This document shows positions 12,788-52,109 of a DNA stretch of 64,000 bases, piece after piece. The notes under the pieces were generated by a model, which saw only the letters and a list, made by a program, of their open reading frames with translations, was not told the DNA's origin and ran no database searches. The stretch's first letter is position 1; each line of letters begins with the position of its first letter. The stretch comes from Acidithiobacillus caldus ATCC 51756 (GTDB taxonomy: Bacteria; Pseudomonadota; Gammaproteobacteria; Acidithiobacillales; Acidithiobacillaceae), in contig NZ_CP005986.1 of the NCBI RefSeq assembly GCF_000175575.2, positions 2,375,001 to 2,439,000 of the forward strand, written 5' to 3'. A program made the translations under genes and the position numbers.

Positions 12788-12810
12788 GACTCCCTTCCTG
12801 TAATTAGCTG

Positions 12811-12827
12811 GACAACAGCCTGTAGTC
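12811..12827. promoter_or_regulatory. imperfect dyad upstream of merR, possible autoregulatory operator
   Basis: GACAACAG-c-CTGTAGTC is an 8-1-8 inverted repeat with one mismatch, lying 24-40 nt upstream of the merR ATG. MerR proteins bind dyads inside the promoter spacer. I could not identify convincing -35 and -10 boxes around it, so the assignment is weak. Confidence 0.3.
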
Positions 12828-12865
12828 TATCGTAAAGCGTTCCTATAAAGCAAAACCCGTGGGGA

Positions 12866-13933
12866 TCATCGAGCCTGGGTCTGCACGCCTAGGGCCTCCA
12901 GAGCCACCGTAGCAAAGCTGCCGGAGGGCAGGGAGAAACGCAGGTCGAGGCCCTCGTCGTCGACCCACTCCCAGGAGCACTCCCGCACACGACAACGCAG
13001 CGCCCGCCGTGCTGCCCGCAAGCCCTGCGCGCCGAGGCGATCGGCCCAGGATAGTCCGTTCTCGGGGAACTCCGGCGGCCCCATCCAGGCCGCCAGCGCC
13101 GCTTGCTCCACCTGCGCCGCTTCGTCCTCGGGGCCGTCGGTACCCGACCCGGGCAAAGGACCGCTGGGGTGCAGATCCCAAGCGTGCAGACGCGCCTCGA
13201 GCGCGGACCAGTCCGCGTCGCTCCGTCGGGCAAGAAAATGACTGTGCGAACCCTCGAGCTGCACACGCTCTCCCGGGAGCAGAGTCTGCCAACTGCCCGT
13301 GCGTACACGCTCGGTCAAGACGGCATTGAACAGCGCCGATCGCGCCGCCGACCACAAAAGGCCCCGCTGCCCGCGCTGCAGACGCTGGCCGGTACCGGCA
13401 AGGAGCCGGGCAGCTGCAGCAAGATTATCGTGACCGAAGCGCTGGCCCCCAAAATAATTGGGGAATCCCAGACGCTCCAGACGGTGTAGCGCTACGTCCC
13501 AGTCCCGGCGACTGCCACGCAGTACCCGAAGGGACAGGCGAAAGCGATTGCCCAGGTGCGCCCCGCGGCGCAGCTTGCGATCGTGGCGATGGCGTTCCAA
13601 AATCTTCAGGTGTTCGTTTTCCAGCACCGTCCAGTCTGGCTCGGCCCTGCCCGGCACGGGGACGGTAAAAAACTGGCGAGTCCGGGCGTGGCGATCCTTG
13701 AGGCCGGCGTAGCCGATGTCGCGCACATGGACACCGGCATGACGGGCGAGACGACGCGCCACCTCCTCGGTGTTGAGGCCACATTTTTCTATGTGCAAGA
13801 AGACATGCTCACCCACGCCGCTGGGTTGAAAGGGGAGCAGTTCCTGGACGAAGAAGGTATCCGGCCCACGCCGGAGAACTCCGCCGATGTCCTCGTCCAG
13901 CCTGGGATACTGGCGCTCCAGGCCGCTAATCAT
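12866..13933 (-). CDS. truD: tRNA pseudouridine(13) synthase TruD
   Basis: The 355-residue enzyme isomerises U13 in tRNA-Glu and related tRNAs. It has the catalytic motif [10 protein letters not shown] (Asp near 82), the NYFGGQRFG block and the TruD insertion domain. The ATG overlaps the end of ispF by 8 nt. The order ispD-ispF-truD is common in gammaproteobacteria and implies one transcript. Confidence 0.95.
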
Positions 13934-36512: not shown

Positions 36513-38060
36513 TCAGACGCCCTTCGCCCAGGTTTCCCTCAGCTTATTGGCCGCTTGCTGGATCTCGGCGCGCGTTGCCGCATCCAGAGATTCCAGGTGC
36601 TTCCACTGCAGGGCCGTGCGCGGGTGGCGGGCAAAGGGGTCGGCATGGCGTATCAGGAAATCCCAGTACAAGGTGGTGAAAGGACAGGCCTTGGCGCCGA
36701 CACGCTCCTGCGGTCGATAGGGACAGCGGGCACAATGGCCGGTCATGCGCGCGATATAATGGCCACTGGCCACATAGGGTTTGGAGGCGACCCGCCCGCC
36801 ATCGGCGTATTGCGACATACCCAGAACATTGGGCAATTCCACCCACTCCACGGCGTCTACATAGATGGCCAGGTACCAGGCGTGAATCGCCTTGGGTGCT
36901 ACCCCCAGGAGCAAGGCAAAGAGGCCCGTGATCATGAGGCGCTCGATGTGGTGGGCATAGCCGTAATCCAGGGTCCGTTGCAGCACATCCCGCAGACAGG
37001 CCATGTCTGTCTGCGCCGACCAATAGAACTGCGGCAGGGGCTGCTCCGCGCCCAGGGCATTCTCCTCTAGATAGTCGGGCATGTAGCGCCAGTAGATACC
37101 ACGCACGAATTCCCGCCAGCCGAGGATCTGGCGCACGAAACCCTCGGTGGCCGCAAGGCTTGCCTCGGCCCTGGCGTGGGCACCCAAGGCCGCCTCGATG
37201 ACCCGTTGCGGATGCAGCAGCCCAAGATTCATGGCGGCGGACAGGCGCGAGTGATAGAGCCACACTGCGCCGGGCCAGGATGCATCCTGAAAACTGCCGA
37301 AGCTCGGCAGCCGCTGGGCGATGAAATCCTCCAGTGCGGCCTCGGCCTCGATCATGGTCACTGGCCAGTCGAAGTGCGCGAGGCTGCCGGGATGATCCGG
37401 GAACTCTCGCTCCACCACGGTCAATACCTCCCGGGTAATGGCGTCTGGGGCAAAGGCCAGTGGTTCCGGTAACCAGCCCGGTCCAGCCTTGCCAAAACTG
37501 TGGCGGTTCTCGCTGTCGTAATTCCAACGGCCGCCGAGGGGCTGATCGCCCTCCATGAGTATCCCGGTGCGTCGACGCGCGTGGCGGTACCAGAATTCCA
37601 TGCGATGCTGACGCTGCGCTCCGGCCCAGCTCTGGAACTCCTCCCGGGTAAAGAGAAACTGGCTTGCCGGCCAGAGCTCGAACTCCGTTCCAGCGGCGTT
37701 GGCCAGGTCCCGCAGCCCCTCGGCCAATGCCCAGGTCCCCGGCTCGTGCAGGGCCAATCGCTGTGGGGCAAACCGTCGTAGGGCAGCCGCTACCGCCGTC
37801 ACCAGGTCGTCGTAAGGATGTTCCGCCAGCGCCCAGTATTCCACCCGCAGACCGCGCTGGCGCAGGGCCTCGGCACCATGGCGCATGGCGCTGAGAAAGA
37901 GGGCAATTCGCGCCTTGTGCGACCACACGCGCTGCGCTTCGGCGCGCGCTTCCACCAGCAGGCACAGATCTCGCTCGGGATCTACCGTGGCGAGATGCGG
38001 GCTGTGCAGGTCCAGATGATCCCCCAAGAGCAGCACCAGACGGCGCACCGGCTTCGACAT
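36513..38060 (-). CDS. Fe-S cryptochrome/photolyase (FeS-BCP, PhrB-type (6-4) photolyase)
   Basis: The 515-residue protein (COG3046 type) has an N-terminal Rossmann domain and a C-terminal FAD and Fe-S domain. Cysteines at 355, 443, 446 and 459 have spacings of 88, 3 and 13, the same as the [4Fe-4S] ligands of Agrobacterium PhrB (350, 438, 441, 454). That family repairs (6-4) photoproducts with light. Start is ATG 38060 with GGAGG; longer starts add a non-homologous tail. Divergent from the FAD/CFA cluster across a palindromic operator-like site. Confidence 0.92.
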   Translation of the reverse strand: MSKPVRRLVLLLGDHLDLHSPHLATVDPERDLCLLVEARAEAQRVWSHKARIALFLSAMRHGAEALRQRGLRVEYWALAEHPYDDLVTAVAAALRRFAPQRLALHEPGTWALAEGLRDLANAAGTEFELWPASQFLFTREEFQSWAGAQRQHRMEFWYRHARRRTGILMEGDQPLGGRWNYDSENRHSFGKAGPGWLPEPLAFAPDAITREVLTVVEREFPDHPGSLAHFDWPVTMIEAEAALEDFIAQRLPSFGSFQDASWPGAVWLYHSRLSAAMNLGLLHPQRVIEAALGAHARAEASLAATEGFVRQILGWREFVRGIYWRYMPDYLEENALGAEQPLPQFYWSAQTDMACLRDVLQRTLDYGYAHHIERLMITGLFALLLGVAPKAIHAWYLAIYVDAVEWVELPNVLGMSQYADGGRVASKPYVASGHYIARMTGHCARCPYRPQERVGAKACPFTTLYWDFLIRHADPFARHPRTALQWKHLESLDAATRAEIQQAANKLRETWAKGV

Positions 38061-38158
38061 AGTTCTACCTCCCGAACAGGACAGCCCACCCATCGTTTTG
38101 GTCGGCACCGCGGCTGCCGCCACGATGGAGAGGACAGCGGGCAAGGCGCAGATCGCCC

Positions 38159-38188
38159 TTGCACGACGCCATCGATTTGTACTATACA
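38159..38188 (+). promoter_or_regulatory. candidate promoter of the FAD oxidoreductase / CFA cluster
   Basis: TTGCAC (38159-38164), 18 nt, TATACA (38183-38188). The -10 is inside the palindrome TGTACTATACA, so a protein bound to it would block transcription. The leader to the ATG at 38311 would be about 115 nt. Confidence 0.45.
38178..38188. promoter_or_regulatory. candidate LitR-type operator, copy 1 (TGTACTATACA)
   Basis: TGTA-CTA-TACA is an 11-bp palindrome in the photolyase/FAD-oxidoreductase divergent gap. Its reverse complement is identical to the site at 48078-48088 beside litR. CarH and LitR regulators bind TGTACA-like half-sites (from memory of the family). The identity and positions suggest one regulator. 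Confidence 0.6.
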
Positions 38189-38310
38189 TAAATTCAACAG
38201 ACACAGAACAGGTTCACCAGGGGGAGCTGTGGCATCCGCGTCGGCAACGCTTGCGTAATGGCAAGGAGTGGAGCGGCACACGAGCTCTCGCAGCTAAAGG
38301 AAAGTGAAGG

Positions 38311-39624
38311 ATGCGTGTAGCAGTCATTGGAAGCGGCATAGCGGGTCTCGGGAGCGCCTGGCTTTTGCGTCAACAGCATCACGTCACCCTCTTCGAGGCA
38401 GACTCCCGTCCAGGTGGCCACACCCACACCGTCGACATTCCCTGGAATGGGCGCAATATCGCCGTGGACACGGGGTTTCTCGTATGCAACGACTGGACCT
38501 ACCCGCATCTGCTCGGCCTCTTTGCCGAAATCGGTATCGAGACGGCTCCCAGCAACATGTCGTTCAGCGTCCGCATCCGCGAGTGGGACTTGGAGTGGAG
38601 CGGAACCGACCTCGCCGCGCTCTTCGCGCAACGGCGTAATCTCGCACGGCCGAAGTTCTGGAACCTGCTGCGCGATATCCTGCGTTTCAATCGCGATGCC
38701 AAGGCCTGGCTACGCTCCGCGGCGGACGATTGCACGCTCGGCGAATTCCTCCAGCGCGGCGGCTACGGGCTGTGGTTTCGAGAGGGCTACCTGCTACCCA
38801 TGGCGGCGGCCATCTGGAGCTGCCCCGTGGCCCGGATGGCGGACTATCCCGCCCGCTCGCTCCTGCATTTTTACGAGAACCACGGGCTGCTCAACGTATT
38901 TCGACGACCCCAGTGGCGCACCGTGCAGGGCGGCGGCCGCGAATACGTACAGCGCATCCTCGCGCAACTGCCTGATGTCCGCCTTGGCCAGGCGGTATCC
39001 GCCCTGCGCCCCGCCCACGGCGGCGGCATCCTCGTCCACACGGCGGCAGGCGCTGAACACTTCGACCTCGTGGTCTCGGCCGTACACAGCGATCAGGCCG
39101 AGACGCTGGTGCGGGATTCGTGGCCTGCTACGGCAGACGCCCTGAGTGCCATTCCCTACCAAGAAAACCAAGCCTGGCTGCACCACGACCGCAGTTTCCT
39201 GCCGAAGCGCGAAGCCGCCTGGTCGGCCTGGAATTTCCATCAGGAACAGCAGCGGGACGGGCAGCGCGTCGTCGCCGTGAGCTACCTCATCAATCGCCTG
39301 CAGCCCCTGGATGTGGACGAGCCCATCATCGTCACCCTGAATCCCGAGCGTGAACCCGATCCCACTTTGGTGTGGCGCCGGATCCAGTATGCCCACCCCG
39401 TTTTCGACCACGCCGCGTTGTCGGCGCAGGAAGCCCTGCGTGCACGCCAGGGGATGGATGGACTGTATTTTGCCGGTGCCTGGCTGGGTCACGGTTTTCA
39501 CGAGGACGGCCTGCGCAGCGCCGTCGCCGTCGCCAACGCCCTGGGTATCCTCGCGCCATGGCAGGACGCCGCTGAAACCTGCGCAGCCCCGGAGGAGGTC
39601 TTGTGTCCCCAGCCAGCCCTGTAA
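38311..39624 (+). CDS. FAD-dependent amine-oxidase-like oxidoreductase (COG2907)
   Basis: The 437-residue flavoprotein has an N-terminal GSGIAGLGSAWLL dinucleotide motif, PGGHTHTV and a C-terminal FAD segment (DGLYFAGAWLGHGFHEDGL). Homologues sit next to DUF1365 and CFA-type methyltransferase genes in stress- or light-induced clusters; in Rhodobacter the related set makes or modifies unusual membrane fatty acids (furan fatty acid genes ufaD/ufaM are one known case). Its exact substrate here is unknown. AAAGGAAAG precedes the ATG. Overlaps the next gene by 22 nt. Confidence 0.82.
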   Translation: MRVAVIGSGIAGLGSAWLLRQQHHVTLFEADSRPGGHTHTVDIPWNGRNIAVDTGFLVCNDWTYPHLLGLFAEIGIETAPSNMSFSVRIREWDLEWSGTDLAALFAQRRNLARPKFWNLLRDILRFNRDAKAWLRSAADDCTLGEFLQRGGYGLWFREGYLLPMAAAIWSCPVARMADYPARSLLHFYENHGLLNVFRRPQWRTVQGGGREYVQRILAQLPDVRLGQAVSALRPAHGGGILVHTAAGAEHFDLVVSAVHSDQAETLVRDSWPATADALSAIPYQENQAWLHHDRSFLPKREAAWSAWNFHQEQQRDGQRVVAVSYLINRLQPLDVDEPIIVTLNPEREPDPTLVWRRIQYAHPVFDHAALSAQEALRARQGMDGLYFAGAWLGHGFHEDGLRSAVAVANALGILAPWQDAAETCAAPEEVLCPQPAL

Positions 39625-40367
39625 AAGGCGCGCTACTGTCGAGCGAGGTGGTACACCGGCGCCTGCAGCCGCGTCGGCCGGGCTTTCGCTACGGGGGCTT
39701 CCACCTGTGCTTCGACCTGGGTGACGAGTCAGCGGTGCAGCGGGTCTTGTCCGGCTTCTGTCCAGTACGTTTTCGTGTGGCGGACCACGGCGCCCGCGAC
39801 GGCAGTCCGCTCTTGCCCTGGATCCAGGATATTTTTTCCCGACATGGCATCGTCGCCGAGCGCATCGTGTTGGTCTGTTATCCGCGCCTGTGGGGATACA
39901 CCTTCAAACCCGTGAGTTTCTGGCTGGGTTTGGATGCGGCGGGCCACCTGCGCGGGGTGCTGGCGGAGGTCAACAATACCTTTGGCGAGCACCACAGCTA
40001 CGTCCTTGCCCACGACGATCGTCGCCCCATCGCCGCCCAAGACTGGCTCGAGGCCCACAAGGTCTTCCACGTCTCACCCTTCTTCAGCGTTGCGGGCCAC
40101 TATCGCTTTCGCTTTGGTCTCGATGCGCGACACTTTCGGGCCGACATCCACTACCTGGACGACTCCGGCCAGGTGCTGCTCGTCACCCAGCTGGCGGGTG
40201 AGCGTCGGGGTCTCAGTCGCGCCGCCATCTGGCGCAGTGTGGCGCGCTATCCCCTGATGACCCTGGCCGTCACCGGACGCATCCACTGGCAGGCGCTGAA
40301 GCTCTGGCGTACCCACATTCCCTTCCATCCCAAACCCCATCCCCCTTCCGAGGAGATCAGCTCATGA
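39603..40367 (+). CDS. DUF1365 protein
   Basis: The 254-residue protein has the DUF1365 signature: RRPGFRYGGFHLCFDL, CYPRLWGYTFKPVSFWL, then LAEVNNTFGEHHSYVL and HKVFHVSPFF. Function unknown; almost always encoded between an FAD oxidoreductase and a CFA-type methyltransferase, as here. GTG start at 39603 has GGAGGAGG, inside the end of the previous gene. Stop overlaps the next ATG (ATGA). Confidence 0.88.
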   Translation: MSPASPVKGALLSSEVVHRRLQPRRPGFRYGGFHLCFDLGDESAVQRVLSGFCPVRFRVADHGARDGSPLLPWIQDIFSRHGIVAERIVLVCYPRLWGYTFKPVSFWLGLDAAGHLRGVLAEVNNTFGEHHSYVLAHDDRRPIAAQDWLEAHKVFHVSPFFSVAGHYRFRFGLDARHFRADIHYLDDSGQVLLVTQLAGERRGLSRAAIWRSVARYPLMTLAVTGRIHWQALKLWRTHIPFHPKPHPPSEEISS

Positions 40368-41581
40368 ATACCGTTACCGCGACCCCGGCGCGGCGCAATA
40401 CCCGTCTGCCCACCTCGGCGCGCTTGCTCTTCAATCTGTTGGAAAGGCTGCCGGAGGGACGTCTGACGGTGCGCGGCCCCAGTGGCGAGATCTGGACCTT
40501 CGTCGGCGAGGTCGATGGGATCGAGGCCGAATGGCTCATCCACGACTGGGCGGCGGTCAACGCCACCCTGCGCGATGGCGACATTGGTTTCGGTCGCAGC
40601 TACCGTGAAGGGAGCTGGGACAGTCCCGATGTCACGAGCCTGATCCGCCTGGCCCTGCGCAATCGCCACCTATTGGAGCAGTACATCCAGGGACACTGGG
40701 CGCGGCGCGGGCTGTACTGGCTTGCCGATCGGCTGTTGCGGCGCAATAGCCGCACGGGCAGTCGCCGCAACATCGCCCAGCACTACGACCTGGGCAACGA
40801 CTTTTATCGCCTTTGGCTCGATCCCAGCATGACCTACTCCAGCGCCTACTATGGCAACCAGCGCGAGCAGAGCCTGGAGTCGGCCCAGCAGGCCAAGTAT
40901 CAGGCCGCCCTGGAGGCTCTGCAGCTGCAACCCGGCGCGACGATCCTGGAGATTGGCTGTGGCTGGGGAGGCTTTGCCGAGCATGCAGCCCGTCGCGGTT
41001 ATCGCGTGCGCGGCCTGACCCTGTCCCGGGAACAGCGCCAATACGCCGAAGAGCGCATTGCCCAGCGCGGACTCGCCGAGCTCGCCAGTTTTCACTACCA
41101 GGATTACCGCGACGAGGTGGGCCACTACGATGGTATCGTCTCCATCGAGATGTTCGAGGCCGTGGGCCAAAAGTGGTGGTCCACCTATTTCGGCCAGATC
41201 CGCCAACTGCTGCGGCCCGGTGGCCGGGCGCTGATCCAGACCATCAGCATTCGCGATGACCGCTTCGAGCGTTACGCCGGTGGTTCGGACTTCATTCGCC
41301 GCTACGTCTTTCCCGGCGGCTTCTTGCCTTCACCGGCGCGCTTCTCCCAGAGCCTGGTGGCGGCGGGGCTGCAGGTGCTGGGCCGTCTCGATTTTGGTCT
41401 GGACTATGCCACCACCCTGCAGCATTGGCGCGAATCCTTCGATCGTGAGACCAAGGCCCTGGGCGAGCTTGGCTTCGACGCCGCCTTCCGCAGGCTGTGG
41501 CGGTTTTACCTCAGCTACTGTGAGGCGGGCTTCGCCGAGAGAGAGCTGGACGTTGGCCAATGGACGCTCTGCCATGCGTGA
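40364..41581 (+). CDS. cyclopropane-fatty-acid-synthase-like SAM methyltransferase
   Basis: The 405-residue methyltransferase has the SAM motif LEIGCGWGGFAEHAA (about 193-207), the CFA-type lipid segment (NIAQHYDLGNDFYRLWLDPSMTYSSAYY) and a C-terminal FERY/GGSDFIRRYVFPGG block. It could form cyclopropane rings or, as in UfaM-type enzymes, methylate vaccenate in furan fatty acid synthesis. The neighbouring FAD and DUF1365 genes favour the latter type of cluster but do not prove it. Confidence 0.88.
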   Translation: MNTVTATPARRNTRLPTSARLLFNLLERLPEGRLTVRGPSGEIWTFVGEVDGIEAEWLIHDWAAVNATLRDGDIGFGRSYREGSWDSPDVTSLIRLALRNRHLLEQYIQGHWARRGLYWLADRLLRRNSRTGSRRNIAQHYDLGNDFYRLWLDPSMTYSSAYYGNQREQSLESAQQAKYQAALEALQLQPGATILEIGCGWGGFAEHAARRGYRVRGLTLSREQRQYAEERIAQRGLAELASFHYQDYRDEVGHYDGIVSIEMFEAVGQKWWSTYFGQIRQLLRPGGRALIQTISIRDDRFERYAGGSDFIRRYVFPGGFLPSPARFSQSLVAAGLQVLGRLDFGLDYATTLQHWRESFDRETKALGELGFDAAFRRLWRFYLSYCEAGFAERELDVGQWTLCHA

Positions 41582-42128
41582 TCGGCGCCCACAAGGTCTC
41601 GTGGCGGTGCTGCTGCTGGTCGCGGCCCTCGGCGCGCCCGCGTATGCCGCAGCGGGCGTCGACGTCCCCCTGCCCGAACGCGCGGCGGCACAGGTGGAAG
41701 GTTTGCATCTCCTCGGCGCCGGACATCTGAACTGGTTCGTCTTTAGCGTCTACGATGCCGCGCTGTACGTCACCGGCACCAGCTACTCGCCCGAGCGCCC
41801 CTTTGCCCTGGCCATCCGCTACGAGCGCAATTTCAGCGCCGCCGAACTTGCCCGTACCTCCCTCAAGGAAATGCTCAAGCTCAACCCCGATGGCCATGCG
41901 CACAAGGCACGCTGGGCGCAGGATCTGGAACGGGCCTTTCCCAGCGTCAAGAGCGGCGATGTGCTGGTGGGCCTCTGCGTTCCCGGCCAATACACCGAGT
42001 TCTTTTTCAACGGCAAGCCCTTCAGCCGCGTCGACGATCCGAGCTTCGGTCCTGCCTTCTTCAGCATCTGGCTGAGCCCGAAAACCCCCGTCCCCGAGTT
42101 GCGCAAGGCCCTGTTGGGGGACTCGTGA
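41574..42128 (+). CDS. chalcone-isomerase-like periplasmic protein
   Basis: The 184-residue protein starts with a signal peptide (MRDRRPQGLVAVLLLVAALGAPAYA). The body fits the chalcone-isomerase-like fold: VFSVYDAALYVTGTSYSP, RYERNFSAAELA and the C-terminal PSFGPAFFSIWLSPKTP. Bacterial members are often fatty-acid-binding proteins without catalysis. ATG at 41574 overlaps the methyltransferase stop by 8 nt. Fits a lipid-modifying cluster. Confidence 0.82.
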   Translation: MRDRRPQGLVAVLLLVAALGAPAYAAAGVDVPLPERAAAQVEGLHLLGAGHLNWFVFSVYDAALYVTGTSYSPERPFALAIRYERNFSAAELARTSLKEMLKLNPDGHAHKARWAQDLERAFPSVKSGDVLVGLCVPGQYTEFFFNGKPFSRVDDPSFGPAFFSIWLSPKTPVPELRKALLGDS

Positions 42129-43435
42129 CGGCGCGCCCAAGGCACACTCTGGGCTGGCTCGCCGGCCGTCCGGCAGCACGTCTGCTCGCGGCCTACGCGC
42201 CCCTGGGTCTGCCTCTGGCCTTTGGAGCCCTGCCCGTCTACCTCCTCATTCCGCACCTCTACGCTACCCGTTACGGCATGTCTTTGGCGCTCCTCGGCGG
42301 GCTCTTGCTAGTGCTGCGTCTTGCCGATGCCGTGCTGGATCCCCTCATCGGCCACTGGAGCGACCTGTGGGCCGAGGTCGCCGGGAGCCGGCTGCGCCTG
42401 ATCCTGGCCGGGATACCCGGGATGATCCTGGGATTTTTTCTGCTCTTTCAGCCTTGGCAGCAGGTGGGTCTGGTGCCCAGTCTGGCCCTGGCCTTGGCCA
42501 TCTTCTATGTGTCGTACAGCCTCACCAGCCTCAATTATCAGGCGCTGGGCGCAGAATTGACCCAGGATTACAACGGTCGCACCTGGTTCACCACCGCTCG
42601 CGAGGCAGGGGCGCTGGTGGGTGTGCTTCTCGCCGCGGCCTTGCCCCAGTTTCTGGAAAGGCGCTTTGGCGCTGGCCCCGGTCTCGACATTTTCGTGCTG
42701 GTCTTCGCGCTGACCTTGGTCACGGCCTTCGCGCCGCTGTGGCGACCAGCGATGCGGCGGCCGGTGACCGGCAACCGCAAACCCTGGTGGACCTTCTACG
42801 AGCCCTTGCGCCGACCGCCGTTGCGCCGACTGCTGGAGGTGTACACCCTGTCGCAGATGGGTAATGCCATTGCCGCGACCCTGTTCTTTTTCTTCGTCGA
42901 CGAGATCCTCCACTCCAAGGTCCTGGCGCCACTCTTTCTTTTGGTGTACTTCCTGTCCGGGGCCTTGGGCATGCCCGTCTGGCTTGCCCTGTCGACGCGC
43001 CTCGGCAAGGCCCGCACTTGGTCCTCGGCCATGCTGCTCAGCATCCTGGCCTTTACCAGCGCCGTGTTCCTGGGACCTGGCGATGCCTGGGCCTACGGGG
43101 CCATCTGTGTCCTCACGGGGCTGACGCTAGGTGCCGATCAGGCCCTACCGCCGAGCATTCTTGCCGACCACACCGATTACGACAGCGATGCACGTGCCGG
43201 TAATTATTTTGGCCTGTTCAATTGGGTTGCCAAGGCCGCCACGGCCCTGGGCGCCGGCATCATTCTACCCCTGTTGCAGTGGTCGGGTTTTCGCCCGGGC
43301 GAGCACCTGTGGTTACTCAGCATCGCCTACGCCATCGTCCCTGCCCTCATCAAGGTGGCGGCCATACTGCTCATGGAGCTTCGGGCCGTCGAAGCGCAAA
43401 GCACCGTAGTACTCAAGAAGGGAGTTGCCTCATGA
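42125..43435 (+). CDS. MFS transporter, GPH (sugar/cation symporter) type
   Basis: The 436-residue membrane protein has about 12 helices and the GPH-family motif DAVLDPLIGHWSD near 68-80, with a second-half motif near GADQALPPSILADHTDYD. Despite the sugar-symporter label, cluster members may transport lipids. GTG start overlaps the previous stop (GTGA). Same position as the symporter gene of the Rhodobacter RpoE-ChrR-linked cluster (from memory). Confidence 0.83.
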   Translation: MTARPRHTLGWLAGRPAARLLAAYAPLGLPLAFGALPVYLLIPHLYATRYGMSLALLGGLLLVLRLADAVLDPLIGHWSDLWAEVAGSRLRLILAGIPGMILGFFLLFQPWQQVGLVPSLALALAIFYVSYSLTSLNYQALGAELTQDYNGRTWFTTAREAGALVGVLLAAALPQFLERRFGAGPGLDIFVLVFALTLVTAFAPLWRPAMRRPVTGNRKPWWTFYEPLRRPPLRRLLEVYTLSQMGNAIAATLFFFFVDEILHSKVLAPLFLLVYFLSGALGMPVWLALSTRLGKARTWSSAMLLSILAFTSAVFLGPGDAWAYGAICVLTGLTLGADQALPPSILADHTDYDSDARAGNYFGLFNWVAKAATALGAGIILPLLQWSGFRPGEHLWLLSIAYAIVPALIKVAAILLMELRAVEAQSTVVLKKGVAS

Positions 43436-44025
43436 AGACCACAAGCAAAGTCGTCCTCGGTGTTGCGGTTCTGGCCGCCCTGTCGGGCTGCGCCACCGTG
43501 CCCAAGGACTATGCCCATACGACACCCAAATTCAGCCTCAAGGAATTCTTCAACGGCCCCATCGTTGCCACAGGCATGTTCCAGAACCGGTCGGGCAAAG
43601 CCGTCAACCGTTTCGTGGTGCGCATGATGGGTACCTGGGAGGGCAATCAGGGAACCCTGGTGGAGCATTTCACCTACATCGATCCCGATGGCAAGAAGAC
43701 CTACGCCGACCGCACCTGGCACCTCACCCAGGTCAATGACCATGAGTTCACGGGCACGGCCGAGGGCTCGGCGGGAGACGTGAAAAGCGCCGCGGGCAAG
43801 GCCTATGGCTTTGCCCTGCACTGGAGTTACGACGTCAAACAACCCGTTGGCAAGAGCTTCTACAATCTCCACGCCGACGACTGGATGTACATGATCGAGC
43901 CGGACGTCGTCATCGATCGCACCGATGTCACCTGGTATGGCATACACGCAGGGGAAATCACCCTGGAGATGCACAAGCTCCCGGACACCGCCGCCAATCG
44001 GGCCATGGTGATGGCGGCGCACTGA
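43432..44025 (+). CDS. DUF3833 lipoprotein
   Basis: The 197-residue protein has a lipoprotein signal (MKTTSKVVLGVAVLAALSGC, lipobox LSGC) and the DUF3833 domain: FFNGPIVATGMFQNRSG, MGTWEGNQGTL, GTAEGSAGDV and DDWMYMIEPDVVIDRT. Function unknown. It is a paralogue of the product of 50116-50694. ATG overlaps the MFS stop (ATGA). Last gene of the rightward overlapping cluster. Confidence 0.85.
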   Translation: MKTTSKVVLGVAVLAALSGCATVPKDYAHTTPKFSLKEFFNGPIVATGMFQNRSGKAVNRFVVRMMGTWEGNQGTLVEHFTYIDPDGKKTYADRTWHLTQVNDHEFTGTAEGSAGDVKSAAGKAYGFALHWSYDVKQPVGKSFYNLHADDWMYMIEPDVVIDRTDVTWYGIHAGEITLEMHKLPDTAANRAMVMAAH

Positions 44026-44084: not shown

Positions 44085-44828
44085 TCAGTTCGCCGTCACC
44101 AAGGGACGGATGGCCGTGAACCCACCATCCACCGGGAGGATCTGTCCGGTGATGTTGCCGTTTTCCGGGTCGACCAGGGTCAAGAGCATACGCGCCACCT
44201 GCTCCGCTGGAATCAGGCCACCCAAGGGATATTGCCGGGCGGCCAGTTCCCGCGACTGCGGGTTCCGCAGCAGATGTGCCGCCGCCCGACTGTCCATGAG
44301 ACCCGAGGCCACGGCATTGACGCGAATGCCGTCGCGGGCGTGGGTGGCAGCCGCCGCCCGAACCATGGCCTCGAGGCCCCCTTTGGCCGCCGCTACGGCC
44401 TCATGGAAGGCCACCCCGATCGCGGCGACCACCGACGACACGAAGACAGCGGCGCCGCCGCCACCGACGCGCCGCCGTGCCGCAACGAAGGCGCGCAGAG
44501 TAAAAAAAGCGGAGTCCAGGTTGGCGGACAGACATTGGCGGTACTGCTGCTCCGAGGTCTGGCCAAGACCCGCCAGCAGGAAGGAACCCGCCAGATGTAC
44601 CAGGGCATCCGGCACTGCCTGCGCTTCTTGCAGGGTCCGAAAGAGCGTGTCCGCCTCTTCCATCCGCGCGACGTCGGCACGCAACCAGCGGACTCCATCG
44701 GGCGCCGCGGTCGGCGGGGCTCCTCGACTCACGGCCAGGACTTCCCAGCCCTGAGCGATGGCCATGGGTATACAGACTTCCGCCAGTGCGCCACTTGCGC
44801 CGGTGATCAACAGTTTGCCTTTACTCAT
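44085..44828 (-). CDS. short-chain dehydrogenase/reductase-fold protein lacking the catalytic Tyr
   Basis: The 247-residue SDR-fold protein has the cofactor motif ITGASGALAE (8-17), the NAG-like HLAGSF and NANLD-like SANLDS. The active site reads S131-S132 then V145-A-A-A-K149: the YxxxK tyrosine is replaced by Val, so canonical dehydrogenase chemistry is unlikely. The C-terminus GNITGQILPVDGGF is normal. Last gene of the pyp operon, 72 nt after the ligase. Confidence 0.85.
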   Translation of the reverse strand: MSKGKLLITGASGALAEVCIPMAIAQGWEVLAVSRGAPPTAAPDGVRWLRADVARMEEADTLFRTLQEAQAVPDALVHLAGSFLLAGLGQTSEQQYRQCLSANLDSAFFTLRAFVAARRRVGGGGAAVFVSSVVAAIGVAFHEAVAAAKGGLEAMVRAAAATHARDGIRVNAVASGLMDSRAAAHLLRNPQSRELAARQYPLGGLIPAEQVARMLLTLVDPENGNITGQILPVDGGFTAIRPLVTAN

Positions 44829-44900: not shown

Positions 44901-46277
44901 TCAAACCGTCCGACCCGCACCGGCAGCACCGCGGACGATGCCGCTCCAGTGCGCGTAGAGTTCACCGCGCTGTACCTTGCCACTGGGGCCAAGGTAGGGA
45001 TCCCAGAAAGCCTCGCCCGCGATGCGCAGGGGGTAGGGTTCGTGCCAGCGCCGCCGCAGCGATGCCTCCTGCTGCGGGCCAGGATCGCCGTGCAGTCGCG
45101 CCAGGGCGAGGGGATGGCGGGCACCGGGACCACCGAGCACGAGCGTCGCAATCTCCGGGTAACTCGTCAGCAGACGCAACTCCTCCAGCTCTGGCTCGAC
45201 GTTGCGGCCATCGGCCAGAACGAAGCGTGCATCGCGGCGTCCCAGCCAGTACCAGCAGCCGTCATCGCCACAGCGCACGACATCGCCGCTATCCACCCAG
45301 GCATCGCGCCGGATGGGATGCCAGTGGCCCGCCCGCCACTCCCCCAGCGCCTGGCCGGGTGAGCGGTAGTGCAGGGTACCGGCACGCTGCTCCACCTCCA
45401 CCAGGGCGCGTCCGAGAAAGGCCGGACGAAAATCGCCGGGATCTCCCAAACAGACGCCCGGCCCCGCCTCGGTCTGCCCATAACCCACCCGCAACGCACT
45501 GCCGCGCAGGCGCCGGGCGAGCTCAGCCGAGATGGGCGCACCACCAACGATGCCGCCAGCCAATGCGCCGATCTGGGTGTCCTGCAACAGCGCCGCCACC
45601 CGCGGTACGACAAAGACGTGGGTAAAGGACTCCTGGCGGAAAGTGCCGAGCGCAGCGACCCGTAGGCTCGAGCCACGGGCAAGGGTGGGTAAAAGCTCCA
45701 GCACTCCGGCAAAGACGTGGGTCCAGGGCAGACAATTACGGACAAGACTGTCGCGCTCCAGGGCAAGCCGGGGCAGATGGCTCTGTACCTGCCAGAGCAG
45801 GGCCGCGTGGGTGAGCCCGAAGACGCGCGGCGCGTGCATGCTGGCGGAAGTCCACAACATCAGCGCCAGGTCCTCGGGATCCAGCGGCGCCTCACCTCGC
45901 CGTTCTTGCCGTCGCGTATGTACGCGTCCAAGGCCGTGCCAGATCAAAAGGTCCGGCCTCAGGGAATCCACGGCACTGACCGTCTGCGCGCCGCGCCACG
46001 CCGGCAGAGGACAAAAAATGCCGTCCAGCATCCAGGTCGCGAGCAGGGTGGCGATATAGATGGGGCTATTGGGTAGCTGGACGGCCACCCGCGGGCGCTG
46101 GGGCAGAGACAGGCGGCGCCAGTGACTGGCCAGACGCCGCGCCCAGGCCCAGAGCGCCGGCCCTGGCCAGATCCGGGCTCCCCCAGCGGGGTCCGGCGTC
46201 TGCCACTCCAGGGCGAAGCCGCTGTGCAGACCCGCCTCGAGGATCTGCAGCAGCGCCTCCCTAGTCGACGTGCTCAT
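44901..46277 (-). CDS. adenylate-forming ligase, possible p-coumarate:CoA ligase for PYP
   Basis: The 458-residue AMP-binding enzyme family member has an A5-type GYGQTEAG and DSGDVV (A7), GRRDARFVLADGRNVEPELEE (A8) and a C-terminal Lys in GPSGKVQRGEL (A10). The P-loop usually TSGTTGxPK reads TSASMHAPR (143-151), a strong departure. Position two genes after a PYP homologue recalls the pyp-pCL pairs of Halorhodospira and Rhodobacter, so a role in chromophore activation is plausible. Start ATG 46277 overlaps the previous gene by 17 nt. Confidence 0.75.
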   Translation of the reverse strand: MSTSTREALLQILEAGLHSGFALEWQTPDPAGGARIWPGPALWAWARRLASHWRRLSLPQRPRVAVQLPNSPIYIATLLATWMLDGIFCPLPAWRGAQTVSAVDSLRPDLLIWHGLGRVHTRRQERRGEAPLDPEDLALMLWTSASMHAPRVFGLTHAALLWQVQSHLPRLALERDSLVRNCLPWTHVFAGVLELLPTLARGSSLRVAALGTFRQESFTHVFVVPRVAALLQDTQIGALAGGIVGGAPISAELARRLRGSALRVGYGQTEAGPGVCLGDPGDFRPAFLGRALVEVEQRAGTLHYRSPGQALGEWRAGHWHPIRRDAWVDSGDVVRCGDDGCWYWLGRRDARFVLADGRNVEPELEELRLLTSYPEIATLVLGGPGARHPLALARLHGDPGPQQEASLRRRWHEPYPLRIAGEAFWDPYLGPSGKVQRGELYAHWSGIVRGAAGAGRTV

Positions 46278-46596
46278 GCTCGTCCACGAAACGCAGCAGG
46301 CGTCCGATACATGCCCGTACCTCGACACGGACGCCCTCGGGCAGCTGCGCCTCCAGGGCGGCAACATGGGCGTCGATTTCCTGCAGCGTCGCGCTCTGCT
46401 CCGCCGTCAGGAAGCCCCGACCGTCGCCTTGGTAGGCGTTGTTCAGCAGATGCCAGACACCACGCAGGATCAGGTAGGACAGGAATTGCTGCTCCCCTTC
46501 CAGCCCTTGGGTGTGGAAATTCTGGGCGCGCAGGATCTCCATCCACTCCAGAAAGTCGGTGAGGGTATAGCTGGATACTTCCAGGGCTGCGTTCAT
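46261..46596 (-). CDS. hypothetical protein between pyp and the ligase gene
   Basis: The 111-residue protein looks largely helical. It has no signal peptide, no membrane segment and a His/Glu-rich end (RFVDEHEHVD). I do not recognise the family. Its ATG overlaps the pyp stop (ATGA), and its end overlaps the ligase start by 17 nt, so it is translated together with them. Coupling suggests it acts with the PYP-like protein or its chromophore, but this is inference. Confidence 0.7.
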   Translation of the reverse strand: MNAALEVSSYTLTDFLEWMEILRAQNFHTQGLEGEQQFLSYLILRGVWHLLNNAYQGDGRGFLTAEQSATLQEIDAHVAALEAQLPEGVRVEVRACIGRLLRFVDEHEHVD

Positions 46597-46997
46597 CCGA
46601 GATCCTCGAACAAGGGTATGACGCGGTCGACGAAGAGGAAAACCAGGGGACTCTGTGCCGGTCGGTACAGCATGTGGATGTGGGCGGAGACGGGCCGGAT
46701 TCGGTAGGTAAAGGTATAGAAGAAATGCTCGTCGAGGCTGCCCCGCTCCAGACCTGCCCGAAAACGGCCGCGGAACAATCGGCTTGCGGTACAGGGCGCG
46801 ACGTCGTCAAAAAAGGAATGGTTGAGCACCTCACTGGCCGGCAAGCCACTGAGTCGCTCCTCCGCCTTGTTGAAGATTCGTACGATCGCCTGGACATCGA
46901 GGCCGATGATGCCAAAGCTCTGCTGATCCGCGAGGGCCTGATTCAGGCTGTCCAGATGCTCGCTAATAGCCTGTGGGACAAAACCTTTCCTGGGCAT
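46593..46997 (-). CDS. pyp: photoactive yellow protein (PYP) homologue
   Basis: The 134-residue PAS protein, numbered from ATG 46997, aligns without gaps to Halorhodospira PYP over the key positions: Cys69 in DVAPCT (p-coumaroyl attachment), Glu46 conserved, Tyr42 replaced by Phe, Thr50 by Ser, Arg52 by Leu. It has the FGIIGLD start of the PAS core and the FxYTFxY strand, and ends FVDRV like PYP. PYP is a blue-light sensor. A GTG 15 nt upstream is another start. First gene of an operon with a ligase, and divergent from litR. Confidence 0.88.
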   Translation of the reverse strand: MPRKGFVPQAISEHLDSLNQALADQQSFGIIGLDVQAIVRIFNKAEERLSGLPASEVLNHSFFDDVAPCTASRLFRGRFRAGLERGSLDEHFFYTFTYRIRPVSAHIHMLYRPAQSPLVFLFVDRVIPLFEDLG

Positions 46998-47049
46998 CTG
47001 CGAGTCACCCACGGCGTCGATCGGTAACGGTCAAGCTGCCTTGTGCCAT

Positions 47050-47134
47050 TTTTGTCCAAGCTTGGGTAAAATGAAAAGCCTGAGCGAAGGGTAACCCGCC
47101 CGTCCGCAATGTCAAGGTACCGTCTTGGACAAAA
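47050..47134. promoter_or_regulatory. inverted repeats in the pyp/litR control region
   Basis: TTTTGTCCAAG (47050-47060) recurs as its exact reverse complement CTTGGACAAAA (47124-47134), overlapping the litR start. The first copy is also half of a near-perfect dyad, TTGTCCAAG followed by CTTGGGTAA (47052-47069). A TTGTGC (47041-47046) and a TAAAAT (47067-47072) flank the dyad with a 20-nt spacer, as in MerR-type promoters. Possible autoregulatory site. Confidence 0.45.
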
Positions 47135-48069
47135 CAAATACACAGCAACCCGAACACCCCGACGACACGCCCCAGTTCCCCATCAGTGTGGTGGAACAGG
47201 AAACCGGCATATCCAAGGAGCTGCTGCGCATGTGGGAACGGCGCTATGGATTTCCGGTGCCGACCCGGGATGCCGCCGGTAACCGGCTGTACAGCCGCCG
47301 TCAGATCCTGCGCCTGCACGACATCAACCGGCTTCTGGGAGCCGGCTACCGGCCCGGCTTCGTCGTTGGCGCCGATCCGCAGCGTCTGGAGCGCCTCCTG
47401 CGCGAGATCCCCAGCCCGGCCACCGCCAACCCGCGCGCCCATCCGGCCCTGGACAAGGCCTGGAGAGCCCTTGCGGAGATCGATCTGCGCGGACTGCGCC
47501 ACCTGCTGCGGCAGGAGCTGGCCCGAGAGGGTGCACAGGACTGGGTCATGGAACTGGCTGCCCCCCTCCTCCACCGCATGGCGCGCAGCCGCTTGGATGA
47601 GAGCCTGCCCACTTTTGTCGAGCGGGCGGCCCAGGAACTGTTGCTGGAAACCCTGGAATTGGCCGCCGCCCAAATTCCACCCGCACCCGAGGACAGCCTG
47701 CGGATTCTGCTCATGAGTCTTCCCGGCGAGGGGCGTCCCCTGGAACTGCAGATGACGCGCATCCTGCTCCTGGGCAAGGGTGTGGACGTGCTTTTTCTGG
47801 GCCCGGAACCGCCCCTGGAAGACGTGCTCCCCTGCCTGCAGCACTGCCCGGTCCACGTCGTGCAGCTCGCCATTTCCGCTGCCTCCGTAAACGGTGACAG
47901 TCGTCAGTGGATTAGACAGATCCAGGACAGTATCCCGCCCAGCATCAGCCTCTGGCTGAGCGGCAGCGGTGCCGCCGAATTGAAGGAGACCCACAACGGT
48001 CCCTGTTTTGCCCGACTCCAAGAGCTGTTGAGCGCCGTCGAGCACTGGAATCCGGGCAATCTCGGCTGA
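47125..48069 (+). CDS. LitR/CarH-family MerR regulator without cobalamin ligands (class II LitR type)
   Basis: The 314-residue protein has an N-terminal MerR helix-turn-helix (about 20-75: ISVVEQETGISKELLRMWERRYGFP), a four-helix-bundle region (about 105-185) and a Rossmann-like B12-type domain (190-314). The ligands of CarH are lost: the His of the helical E-H pair is Arg167, the ExHxxG motif reads E202-G-R204-P-L-E207, and the Trp of the cap position is Met152. So it probably cannot bind adenosylcobalamin. TTG start has AAGGT upstream. Divergent from pyp. Confidence 0.85.
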   Translation: MDKTNTQQPEHPDDTPQFPISVVEQETGISKELLRMWERRYGFPVPTRDAAGNRLYSRRQILRLHDINRLLGAGYRPGFVVGADPQRLERLLREIPSPATANPRAHPALDKAWRALAEIDLRGLRHLLRQELAREGAQDWVMELAAPLLHRMARSRLDESLPTFVERAAQELLLETLELAAAQIPPAPEDSLRILLMSLPGEGRPLELQMTRILLLGKGVDVLFLGPEPPLEDVLPCLQHCPVHVVQLAISAASVNGDSRQWIRQIQDSIPPSISLWLSGSGAAELKETHNGPCFARLQELLSAVEHWNPGNLG

Positions 48070-48077
48070 CCACATTT

Positions 48078-48088
48078 TGTATAGTACA
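48078..48088. promoter_or_regulatory. candidate LitR-type operator, copy 2 (TGTATAGTACA)
   Basis: TGTA-TAG-TACA palindrome located 9 nt after the litR stop and 6 nt upstream of a TTGACA -35 element for the HdrA-like gene. It is identical (reverse complement) to the site at 38178-38188. Confidence 0.6.
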
Positions 48089-48093
48089 GACAG

Positions 48094-48122
48094 TTGACAC
48101 GGCAGCGTGGGGCTCCTACACT
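48094..48122 (+). promoter_or_regulatory. strong promoter of the HdrA-like gene
   Basis: Consensus TTGACA (48094-48099), 17 nt, TACACT (48117-48122). It is followed by GGAGG ahead of the ATG at 48153. The operator-like palindrome lies directly upstream. Confidence 0.7.
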
Positions 48123-48152
48123 TTCATCGTGACGACAGCGGAGGATCTCTTC

Positions 48153-49214
48153 ATGGCACGTCACGACACGGTTTTGGTAGTAGGGGCGGGCCCGGCGGGT
48201 CTGTCGGCGGCGGCCACGGTGGCGGCCATGGGCAAGAAGGCGGTCATCGTCGAGAAGGAAGACGTGCTTGGCGGCGCCCCCATCATCTCCGGCTATTCCA
48301 AGCTGGTGCCCTCGGGCGAGTGGGCCAAGGACGCCATCGGCCGCATGGTCAGCCGTGTGGACGGCAATGGCAACGTCAGCATCCACAAGTCCACCAAGGT
48401 GACTCAGCTGGATGGCGAGGCCGGTAATTTCACGGCGCACCTGAGCAATGGCCAGCAGGTGGAAGCGGGCAGCATCGTCCTGGCCACGGGCTTTACCCAT
48501 TTCGATTCCATCAACAAGCCCGAGTGGGGCTTCGGTACCTACGAAGACGTCCTCACCACCACCCAGATGGAGCAGATGGTGGGTACCGGCCAGATTCGCT
48601 GTCCGTCCGACGGGCGCGTGCCCGAGCGGGTGGCCATTCTGCTGTGCGTCGGCTCCCGCGACCGGCAGATCGGCCGCGAGTGGTGCTCCAAGATCTGCTG
48701 CACCGTCTCCACCAACCTCGCCATGGAGATCAAGGAGCTGTCGCCTTCCACGGACGTGTTCATCTACTACATGGACATCCGCACCTTCGGGCTCTACGAG
48801 GACAAGTTCTACTGGAAGAGCCAGGAAGAGTACAAGACCAAGTTCGTCAAGGCGCATATCGCCGAGGTGACCAAGTCCCCGGACGGTCGGCTCCTGGTCA
48901 AGGGTGAGGACACCTTGGTCAAGCGCCCCATCGTGATCCCCATGGACATCGTGGTGCACGCCATCGGCATGGATCCCAACGCGCTGAATCCCGAGATTGC
49001 CAAGGTCTTTGGCGTTGGTCTTGAGAAGCACGGCTTCATCGACCGCGCCGAGCAGTACACCAACAGCCAGGGCACGACGCGCAAGGGCATCTACGTTTGT
49101 GGCGCCGCCACGGGTCCCGAGACCATCGACGACTCCATCGCCCAGGGTCAATCGGCGGGCTCCCGCGCGGTGGCGGATCTCTATCAGGCGGCTGCCCTCG
49201 CCGTCAACGCCTGA
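48153..49214 (+). CDS. HdrA-like FAD oxidoreductase (sulfur-oxidation sHdr type)
   Basis: The 353-residue flavoprotein has the FAD motif GAGPAG (11-16), LGGAPIISGYSK, and the HdrA hallmark CVGSRDRQIGREWCSKICC, with Cys178, Cys182 and Cys183 of the CxxxCC type. It also has the FIYYMDIRTFG block and the AAT-rich FAD end. In sulfur oxidisers, HdrA works with HdrB and HdrC in the sHdr-LbpA pathway that oxidises sulfane sulfur to sulfite. Here no hdrB or hdrC is adjacent, so this may be a stand-alone paralogue. ATG 48153 has GGAGG. Confidence 0.85.
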   Translation: MARHDTVLVVGAGPAGLSAAATVAAMGKKAVIVEKEDVLGGAPIISGYSKLVPSGEWAKDAIGRMVSRVDGNGNVSIHKSTKVTQLDGEAGNFTAHLSNGQQVEAGSIVLATGFTHFDSINKPEWGFGTYEDVLTTTQMEQMVGTGQIRCPSDGRVPERVAILLCVGSRDRQIGREWCSKICCTVSTNLAMEIKELSPSTDVFIYYMDIRTFGLYEDKFYWKSQEEYKTKFVKAHIAEVTKSPDGRLLVKGEDTLVKRPIVIPMDIVVHAIGMDPNALNPEIAKVFGVGLEKHGFIDRAEQYTNSQGTTRKGIYVCGAATGPETIDDSIAQGQSAGSRAVADLYQAAALAVNA

Positions 49215-50115: not shown

Positions 50116-50694
50116 TTGACCGGACCCCAGAACTACTCGAGTAAAATTCGTTCCTATGGCCAATCCGTACCGGAGTTCCGCCTCGATGGGTTCTTCCGCG
50201 GACCAAGTGTCGCCACCGGGATCTTTCAGGATCGCCGCGGGCGGGTCCGCAATCGCTTCGTCATGCATCTGCTGGGCGATTGGGAGGGCGAGCGGGGTAG
50301 CTTGAGCGAGCGCTTCCTTTTCCTGGACGATCGCGGCCAGGCCACGACAGCGGAGCGCCTCTGGCAGCTGAGGCTCGAGGATGACGATCACTTCATTGGC
50401 ACCGCCAGGGGCAGTGCCGGTGATATCGTCGGTGAGGCCACGGGCGAACGTCTCGGTTATGCCATGCACTGGCGTTATCGGGTGCGTCAGCCCGTGGGTG
50501 ACAAGTTCTATACCCTGAGCGCCGACGACTGGATGTATCTCATCGACACCGATCACGTCATCAACCGCACCCGGATGTTCTTTCTGGGCTTTTTCATTGG
50601 CGAGGTGAGTATCGAGATCCATCGTCTGGCCGATACACCGGACAACCGTGCCGCCATGGAGCGCTGCCCAGCCCCTGGCGAGCCCATCCGATGA
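50116..50694 (+). CDS. DUF3833 protein, no signal peptide (second copy)
   Basis: The 192-residue paralogue of the 43432-44025 lipoprotein shares the FFRGPSVATGIFQDRRG, LGDWEGERGSL, GTARGSAGDI and DDWMYLIDTDHVINRT blocks. It has no signal peptide or lipobox, so it would be cytoplasmic unless a start was missed. TTG at 50116 has GAGGAG at 9 nt; the real start is uncertain. ATGA overlap with the SDR gene. DUF3833 and SDR neighbours recur in RpoE-ChrR-type stress clusters (from memory). Confidence 0.75.
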   Translation: MTGPQNYSSKIRSYGQSVPEFRLDGFFRGPSVATGIFQDRRGRVRNRFVMHLLGDWEGERGSLSERFLFLDDRGQATTAERLWQLRLEDDDHFIGTARGSAGDIVGEATGERLGYAMHWRYRVRQPVGDKFYTLSADDWMYLIDTDHVINRTRMFFLGFFIGEVSIEIHRLADTPDNRAAMERCPAPGEPIR

Positions 50695-51476
50695 ACACCG
50701 ACTTCTGGCGTGGCAAGCGCTGCTGGCTGGTGGGCGCGAGCTCCGGCATCGGCGCCGCCTGTGCCCGGGCGCTGGCCGATGCGGGGGCTCGCGTTGCCAT
50801 CAGTGCGCGCGATCAGGCCGCCCTGGATGCCCTGTTGGCAGAACTCCCACAGGGCACGGCAGAGGCGTCCAGCGCGCATCTCGCCGTGGCCGTGGATGTC
50901 CGCTCCGACACGGCTGTGGCCAGTGCCTGGGAGCGCGTCCACGGGGTCTGGGGCGGCGTCGATCTGCTCCTGTACCTGGCGGGTAACTACCTGCCCGCCA
51001 GGTCGTGGGACCTGGACGTCGGGCGCGCCCAGGACATTCTCGATATCAATTATCTGGGGGCACTGCGCGCGGTGTCTTGTGTGCTGCCCGGTTTCCTTGC
51101 GGCAGGGGCTGGCCACATCGCCCTGACCTCCAGCGTCGCCGGCCTGCGCGGTCTGCCCAAATCCCTCTACTACGGCCCCAGCAAGGCGGCGCTCACCCAC
51201 CTTGCCGAGATTCTGCGCCTGGATCTGGAATCGCGGGGCGTGCGGATACAGGTCATTCACCCCGGTTTCGTGGCCACCCCCCTCACGGCACAGAACGACT
51301 TTGCCATGCCTCACCTTCTCCAGCCGGAGGAGGCGGCGCAATTGCTGCTGCGCGGGCTGGAACGCAAGGCCTTCGAGGTCCATTTTCCGAAGGCCTTTAC
51401 GCGCCGCTTTCACTGGCTGCGCTGCCTGCCCTACTCCTGGTACTTCCCCCTCATTCGCCGCGCCACCGGTCTCTAG
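50691..51476 (+). CDS. short-chain dehydrogenase/reductase
   Basis: The 261-residue SDR has the cofactor motif LVGASSGIGAA (13-23), a complete active site with Ser in LTSSVAG and YYGPSK (Tyr-x-x-x-Lys), and PGFVATPLT. The substrate is unknown. Its C-terminal tail (FHWLRCLPYSWYFPLIRR) is unlike most SDRs and may attach to membranes. Coupled to the DUF3833 gene by overlapping ATGA. Confidence 0.88.
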   Translation: MNTDFWRGKRCWLVGASSGIGAACARALADAGARVAISARDQAALDALLAELPQGTAEASSAHLAVAVDVRSDTAVASAWERVHGVWGGVDLLLYLAGNYLPARSWDLDVGRAQDILDINYLGALRAVSCVLPGFLAAGAGHIALTSSVAGLRGLPKSLYYGPSKAALTHLAEILRLDLESRGVRIQVIHPGFVATPLTAQNDFAMPHLLQPEEAAQLLLRGLERKAFEVHFPKAFTRRFHWLRCLPYSWYFPLIRRATGL

Positions 51477-51551: not shown

Positions 51552-52109
51552 ATGGCCGTAGAGATGAAAGTATTCAGCACCGGAATCGATCCCCAGGACT
51601 GGATTCCCGAGCGCTTCACCAAGCCTGGCGGCGGCGTGACCCCGCCCATCTTCTGGCAACATCTGCCCGAGAAGACGCGCAGTCTCGTCCTGCTCATGGA
51701 ACACCGTGAGGCCAAGCCCGAAGCACGCGTCTTTTGGCTCGTCTACGATATCCCGCCCAAAGCGGAGGGCATCCACGAGGGCGGGCCTCTGCCCGCTGGA
51801 GCCAAAGTCGGTCGCAACAGTTTTGGCGAGGTGGGCTACCGGCCGCCCGAGGCCAGCGCCGACCGCTCCCTGCAGCATTACGACTTCCTGTTGCTGGCAA
51901 CGGATCTGGCCAGCCTCGGCTTGCCCGAAGGCGCCGATTGGGAGGCGGTGAAGCAGGCCCTGAAGGGTCATCACGCACCCGAGGATCTGGCACCGCCGCC
52001 AGCCATCGACGTCCGCGCCCGTGAGTTGCACCCCTTAAGCCACGTGCTCGACCATGCGGAATTCTCGGGGCACTTTGCGCTGGACATCGACGCACCGGCA
52101 AAGACCTGA
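51552..52109 (+). CDS. YbhB/YbcL-like (PEBP) protein, divergent
   Basis: The 185-residue protein has the PEBP pattern: a PPIFWQHLPEKTRSLVLLMEH block, FWLVYDIPPKAEG and GYRPPE. The usual ligand-site Asp-x-Asp is absent, so phosphatidylethanolamine binding is doubtful. AAAGGAGA lies 7 nt before the ATG. It may end the light/stress island. The C-terminal 35 residues are not family-typical. Confidence 0.75.
   Translation: MAVEMKVFSTGIDPQDWIPERFTKPGGGVTPPIFWQHLPEKTRSLVLLMEHREAKPEARVFWLVYDIPPKAEGIHEGGPLPAGAKVGRNSFGEVGYRPPEASADRSLQHYDFLLLATDLASLGLPEGADWEAVKQALKGHHAPEDLAPPPAIDVRARELHPLSHVLDHAEFSGHFALDIDAPAKT

Follow-up and report, generated by a model that had tools for sequence, protein, structure and literature searches.

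In Pseudomonas mendocina, the illuminated blue-light receptor PmSB-LOV binds the HTH domain of the regulator PmlR2 and thereby releases PmlR2 from the DNA, and the light-induced pmlR1 region of this organism encodes PhrB, an SDR, an FAD oxidoreductase and UfaM (PMC9758184). In E. coli, BluF antagonises BluR (PMC3509220). Photolyases and CFA synthase are induced by blue light in V. cholerae (PMC5241685). A survey published in 2025 and covering 984 PYPs names signal transfer by single-domain PYPs as an open gap (PMC12826048).

Here, we describe a locus of Acidithiobacillus caldus ATCC 51756 in which the gene of a PYP homologue (pyp) lies next to the gene of a LitR/CarH-type regulator (litR). The window, i.e. 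the whole stretch of DNA analysed, comprises 64,000 nucleotides, and positions in it are listed in Table 1. Like PmSB-LOV/PmlR2 (PMC9758184), the locus combines the gene of a single-domain blue-light receptor with a nearby LitR without functional B12 binding, and its putative regulon likewise contains a photolyase, an SDR, an FAD oxidoreductase and a CFA-like UfaM. However, the receptor is a flavin LOV protein there and a PYP here. The E. coli BluF/BluR system (PMC3509220) also consists of a separate blue-light receptor and a MerR-like regulator encoded alongside it, with antagonism there and proposed antagonism here, but its receptor is a BLUF-EAL protein, BluR is a paralogue of MlrA and the targets are biofilm genes. 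Gene identities, conserved pairing, loss of the B12 contacts and shared boxes were computed in this study. We consider it probable that PYP and LitR form a split LitR system in which PYP is the subunit that senses light, and that this system controls the photolyase and membrane-lipid genes.

Table 1. Features of the pyp-litR locus and its surroundings (positions in the window)
Feature	Position	Strand	Basis
Photolyase, PF04244 (FeS-BCP/PhrB-like) family, E 1e-69; longest ORF	36513..38204	-	family match
Strict dyad TTTGTACTATACA, between photolyase and FAD-oxidase/lipid operon	38176..38188	+	motif search
COG2907-like amine-oxidase/FAD protein	38311..39624	+	family match
DUF1365 protein	39603..40367	+	family match
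CFA/UfaM-like methyltransferase	40364..41581	+	family match
MFS_2 transporter	42125..43435	+	family match
DUF3833 lipoprotein-like protein	43432..44025	+	family match
SDR1, FabG-like short-chain dehydrogenase; end of pyp operon in this genus	44085..44828	-	family match
ANL (AMP-forming) enzyme overlapping X110; candidate ligase for chromophore activation	44901..46277	-	family match
X110, small all-helical protein without known family; start overlaps pyp stop	46261..46596	-	sequence, predicted fold
PYP-type photoreceptor (pyp), 134 aa from conserved ATG	46593..46997	-	PDB relatives, pocket residues
Shared pyp-litR control region, 127 bp	46998..47124	.	sequence
Second box TTTTGTCCAAG, 5' of TAAAAT -10-like sequence facing litR	47050..47060	+	sequence
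-35 TTGACA of predicted pyp promoter, 13 nt past box TTTTGT	47110..47115	-	promoter layout
Operator-like box TTTTGTCCAAGACG, 5' of pyp -35, overlapping litR start codon	47121..47134	-	motif search, promoter layout
LitR/CarH-type MerR regulator without cobalamin ligands (litR), 314 aa, TTG start	47125..48069	+	MerR HTH, CarH structures, contact-residue alignment
Box TTTTGTATAGTACA and -35 TTGACA, predicted promoter of HdrA-like gene	48075..48099	+	motif search, promoter layout
HdrA-like FAD oxidoreductase encoded 3' of litR; ATG probably at 48153	48129..49214	+	family match
Second DUF3833 protein	50116..50694	+	family match
SDR2, short-chain dehydrogenase	50691..51476	+	family match
Phosphatidylethanolamine-binding protein (PEBP)	51552..52109	+	family match

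Divergent pairing of pyp and litR in Acidithiobacillaceae

As originally predicted, pyp (ATG at 46997) and litR (TTG at 47125) are arranged back-to-back over a spacer of 127 bp, and the divergent pair proved to be conserved across genomes, being present in 13 of 13 PYP-bearing Acidithiobacillaceae. PYP was found in 13 of the 57 relatives searched, all 13 being members of this family of acidophilic sulfur bacteria, and the AMP-forming enzyme is encoded downstream of pyp in each of them. Orthologues of LitR (E<1e-90) are confined to these 13 genomes, a search of 18 further Acidithiobacillia having yielded none, and those of the ANL enzyme (E<1e-110) and the DUF3833 marker have a distribution identical to that of PYP and LitR (13 of 31 Acidithiobacillia). 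The PYP-LitR pair is not due to chance, and the co-occurrence of PYP, LitR, the ANL enzyme and DUF3833 in these genomes strongly suggests that they make up a functional module; as the genes are linked and gained or lost as a block, the 13 species do not represent 13 independent tests.

No PYP-LitR neighbours outside the Acidithiobacillaceae were seen in the flanks examined in a shallow search of 369 genomes of the class, 398 genomes of the phylum (the two samples partly overlap) and a plasmid collection. LitR-type matches were taken from the class genomes and plasmids, PYPs from the class and phylum samples, and the gene-by-gene reading of the flanks excludes four further phylum matches (L132-L135). 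Plasmid-borne pyp genes of Caballeronia and Sphingomonas (L138, 5001-6596; L141; L142) lie beside AMP-binding and GGDEF/EAL genes and carry the annotation PYP or 'phosphonate transporter', the latter apparently being a misannotation of PYP. In Comamonas endophytica (L137, 4366-8906) a BLUF gene and the gene of a B12-type LitR, both surrounded by chemoreceptor genes, are separated by a few genes and thus not adjacent; this is possibly another photoreceptor-LitR association. The cluster in its Acidithiobacillus form was also seen on contig L006, which bears the label Phycisphaera mikurensis (MAG SulCav_PC08), apparently as a result of misbinning.

A LitR-type regulator without cobalamin ligands

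A MerR HTH was detected in LitR, and the nearest structures were those of Thermus CarH (E 1e-16; Foldseek E 4e-16). The AlphaFold model (mean pLDDT 84) comprises HTH, helix bundle and Rossmann-like parts. With its MerR HTH and the predicted CarH-like C-terminal domains, the protein falls into the LitR/CarH family, and it resembles Thermus CarH and class I LitR in domain order and predicted fold. The difference lies in the cobalamin contacts, which we take to be W131, H142 and H177 in Thermus CarH. All three are replaced in 13 of 13 PYP-associated LitRs and retained in 11 of the 11 nearest LitRs, which come from other Pseudomonadota; the combination W131, E/H142 and H177 expected of class I LitR, the B12 photoreceptor, was likewise found in none of the 13. 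The regulator had thus been described correctly as lacking the cobalamin ligands, with a CarH-like fold still predicted. Its assignment to class II LitR was not supported by the features compared here. Class II proteins contain a recognisable PF02607 and are said to be without the Rossmann part, whereas LitR gave no Pfam match to PF02607 (B12-binding_2) at E<=0.1 and has a predicted Rossmann part. Moreover, the relevant promoters contain no near match to TRTACA-N12-TGTAYA, the Pseudomonas class II LitR box, and no LOV gene is adjacent.

The 13 PYP-associated LitRs form one clade in the tree (support 100/100). In the simplest reading, the ancestral LitR was B12-sensing and its sensor was lost in the PYP-bearing lineage. 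Some of the B12-type LitR relatives have similar kinds of neighbours, as judged from the sequences, for example a COG2907-like FAD protein (L109, L111) or, in the case of L116, SDR, DUF3833-like and PEBP-like proteins. The HTH of LitR is far more conserved than the remainder of the protein would lead one to expect: its identity is 77% among the PYP-associated LitRs versus 53% among the B12-type proteins, at equal helix-bundle identity (33%). The raised conservation would fit an added partner, PYP, on the HTH; relaxed constraint on the C-terminal part of LitR could equally give this pattern.

A divergent PYP with a conserved pocket

The ORF of pyp spans 46593-47012 (-) and includes the conserved ATG. 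Solved relatives of the protein are all PYPs or PYP-derived (best phmmer E 3e-18). Its top family match, NCBIfam photo_yellow (TIGR02373), scores 85.2 bits and does not reach the curated cut-off of 143, indicating a divergent PYP. The pyp gene differs from that of the nearest relative by 68 nucleotides, of which 57 fall on third codon positions, and this excess implies strong purifying selection.

In the alignment, Cys69 (thioester) and Glu46 (proton donor) as well as Phe62, Val66, Ala67, Pro68, Thr70 and Phe96 are invariant in the PYPs of the 13 species and in that of Halorhodospira halophila, to which the protein is thus similar in family and pocket residues. An exact PYP chromophore site had been claimed: Cys69, Glu46 and the VAPCT block are indeed present, but the pocket is inexact, as residue 42 is Phe instead of Tyr in 13 of 13 species. 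Position 42 is Tyr in 90.8% and Phe in 8.9% of PYPs (PMC12826048); Phe42 is a known natural alternative and does not disqualify the protein as a PYP. Besides Phe42, Ser50 and a C-terminal FEDLG tail distinguish it from the H. halophila protein. The short tail reads EDLG in 12 of the 13 species and EDLA in one.

The pyp operon and chromophore supply

The reading frames of pyp, X110 and the ANL enzyme overlap or abut, both here and in related species, which suggests an operon with translational coupling. X110 has four predicted helices and an invariant NNA-Q-DG-FL core, is missing in A. concretivorus (L004/L015), and gave no family match and no significant match in a fold search. The original prediction had overlooked the AMP-forming enzyme, encoded by the next gene but one from pyp, and the absence of an ammonia-lyase. 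No aromatic ammonia-lyase (PF00221) was recognisable in the A. caldus genome or in 12 PYP-bearing relatives, so that the TAL-type lyase and pCL expected for chromophore supply in the PYP family were not found together in any of the 13 genomes; a PF00221 lyase is present in 7 of 9 other PYP genomes sampled. H. halophila, in contrast, has a TAL + pCL operon, whereas in the A. caldus genome no TAL is recognisable, the ligase shows no recognisable kinship to those known from PYP systems and the apparent partner of PYP is LitR. When the ANL enzyme was compared by blastp with three ligases encoded beside pyp in Caballeronia and Sphingomonas, no match was significant. Dohmen et al. found few pyp operons with TAL and suggested a TAL gene at another place in the genome or uptake of p-coumarate (PMC12826048). 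In contrast to a TAL outside the operon, whole genomes are without a recognisable lyase here. The 1.4-kb gap after the ANL gene in Acidithiobacillus was considered as a place for an ammonia-lyase, but the gene in it, judged from its sequence, seems to encode an amino-acid-permease-like membrane protein and no lyase. In Acidithiobacillus sensu stricto (L003, L005, L008, ~12100-13480) the permease-like gene follows the ANL gene directly; it is conceivable that it imports an aromatic precursor.

Either the chromophore is provided by another route or by uptake, or it is a different chromophore, or PYP is not photoactive. In the last case, PYP would be a ligand or redox PAS sensor without a source of p-coumarate that still feeds LitR; the missing lyase and the seemingly unrelated ligase speak for this. 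We regard this as very unlikely because the pocket is strictly conserved; in addition, the AMP-forming enzyme is always part of the operon and a photolyase is among the targets. We infer that PYP carries a chromophore. It is possible, though rather doubtful, that the chromophore is made without an aromatic ammonia-lyase and with the help of the unrelated AMP-forming enzyme, or that it is other than p-coumarate. For instance, 4-hydroxybenzoate might undergo one fatty-acid-type elongation via the ANL enzyme and the FabG-like SDR1.

Shared operator-like boxes and the putative regulon

A TTTTGT-N5-ACAAAA-type dyad, distinct from the TRTACA-N12-TGTAYA box of PmlR2, is located at three places, namely in the pyp-litR spacer, 5' of the HdrA-like gene and in the gap between photolyase and lipid genes. 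The pattern TTTGTMNNNKACR has three matches in the window versus 0.16 expected; one is at the start of litR, one lies 5' of the HdrA-like gene and one is in the photolyase/lipid operon gap. Genome-wide, the relaxed pattern yielded 28 matches versus 12 for the reversed control and is thus not specific by itself. The strict dyad TTTGTANNNTACA occurs twice in the whole 3.0-Mb genome, both times in the pyp-litR cluster. Its core TGTATAGTACA recurs in related PYP-bearing genera, at cluster positions where placeable, whereas relatives lacking PYP did not show it. Close to the litR start, the spacers between pyp and litR contain a dyad of variable sequence, TTTTGT(A/C)-N3-(T/G)AC(A/G) (in variant form in L014), and the dyad is perfect in some species (TTTTGTCCAGTACAAAA in L008). 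TTTTGT-N13-TTGACA is identical at the promoters predicted for pyp and the HdrA-like gene, with two occurrences in the window versus none in 100 shuffles; across species it is seen again 5' of the HdrA-like gene and, in most of them, 5' of pyp. From position and distribution, we infer that LitR binds the boxes.

The flanking genes had been predicted to match a light-induced LitR regulon. This is borne out by the photolyase, SDR, FAD protein and CFA-type methyltransferase, which are found in the P. mendocina regulon as well (PMC9758184), and a link between the pyp-litR pair and these genes is supported by the shared operator-like dyad. The alignment of the photolyase begins at residue 43 of the longest ORF, and its true start is probably further in. 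The HdrA-like flavoprotein is 88-96% identical across genera, compared with about 60% for PYP, and its gene has the same box-to-promoter layout as pyp. Being of the sulfur-metabolism type, it is an odd member of a putative light regulon.

The box before pyp would make this gene a LitR target as well as a possible input. PYP and LitR might then be co-regulated neighbours instead of partners, with LitR answering another signal such as ROS and controlling pyp and the photolyase, while PYP signals elsewhere. In support of this, the MerR regulator of the V. cholerae light response has been proposed to sense ROS (PMC5241685). However, no other signalling gene is conserved beside pyp, and the sensor contacts of LitR were lost in exactly the PYP-bearing lineage. 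We therefore consider mere co-regulation decidedly unlikely and favour a partnership of PYP and LitR.

Proposed mechanism

Given the known BluF-BluR and LOV-PmlR2 switches and the conserved HTH of LitR, we propose that lit PYP acts on LitR. In the dark, LitR would occupy the TTTTGT-N5-ACAAAA-type boxes beside the -35 regions of pyp and the HdrA-like gene and at the photolyase/lipid promoters, and would also sit on its own gene. Blue light would convert PYP into its signalling state, which would contact LitR, most likely at the HTH domain, and alter its DNA binding. As a result, the photolyase, the membrane-lipid genes and pyp itself would be induced. The regulator would descend from a LitR that bound cobalamin and later lost its B12 contacts.

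By analogy, lit PYP most likely acts as an anti-repressor, i.e. light would relieve repression. The pair might instead work as an activator, light-state PYP helping LitR to recruit RNA polymerase. At pyp and at the HdrA-like gene, the box lies immediately 5' of the -35 TTGACA, a classic activator position that would also suit this mode. Nevertheless, a site abutting the -35 region can repress as well, and the LitR/CarH proteins and BluR characterised in the cited work (PMC9758184, PMC3509220) are light-relieved repressors, so that activation appears unlikely. It shares the pairing with the anti-repressor reading and differs in sign; the likelihoods given to the two are not additive.

Implications

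A literature search of titles and abstracts, covering few subscription journals, returned no paper relevantly tying PYP to LitR, MerR or Acidithiobacillus, nor any on photoreceptors of Acidithiobacillus. Among the PYP neighbours mentioned in the main texts of the 2025 survey (PMC12826048) and of a 2022 survey (PMC9664959) there are neither MerR regulators nor photolyases; supplementary tables or other sources may contain the gene pair uncommented.

The two-protein logic of a photoreceptor and a MerR-type regulator is already known, and PYP in this role is apparently a new part and a third receptor family. To our knowledge, no PYP has been assigned such a role. The locus raises the question of how a PYP chromophore is supplied without the known lyase, and it provides PYP with a candidate signalling partner, candidate targets and a candidate operator. 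If the proposal is true, PYP would join BLUF and LOV among the receptor families working through MerR-type regulators, and the Acidithiobacillaceae would offer an example of a B12 light sensor replaced by another receptor.
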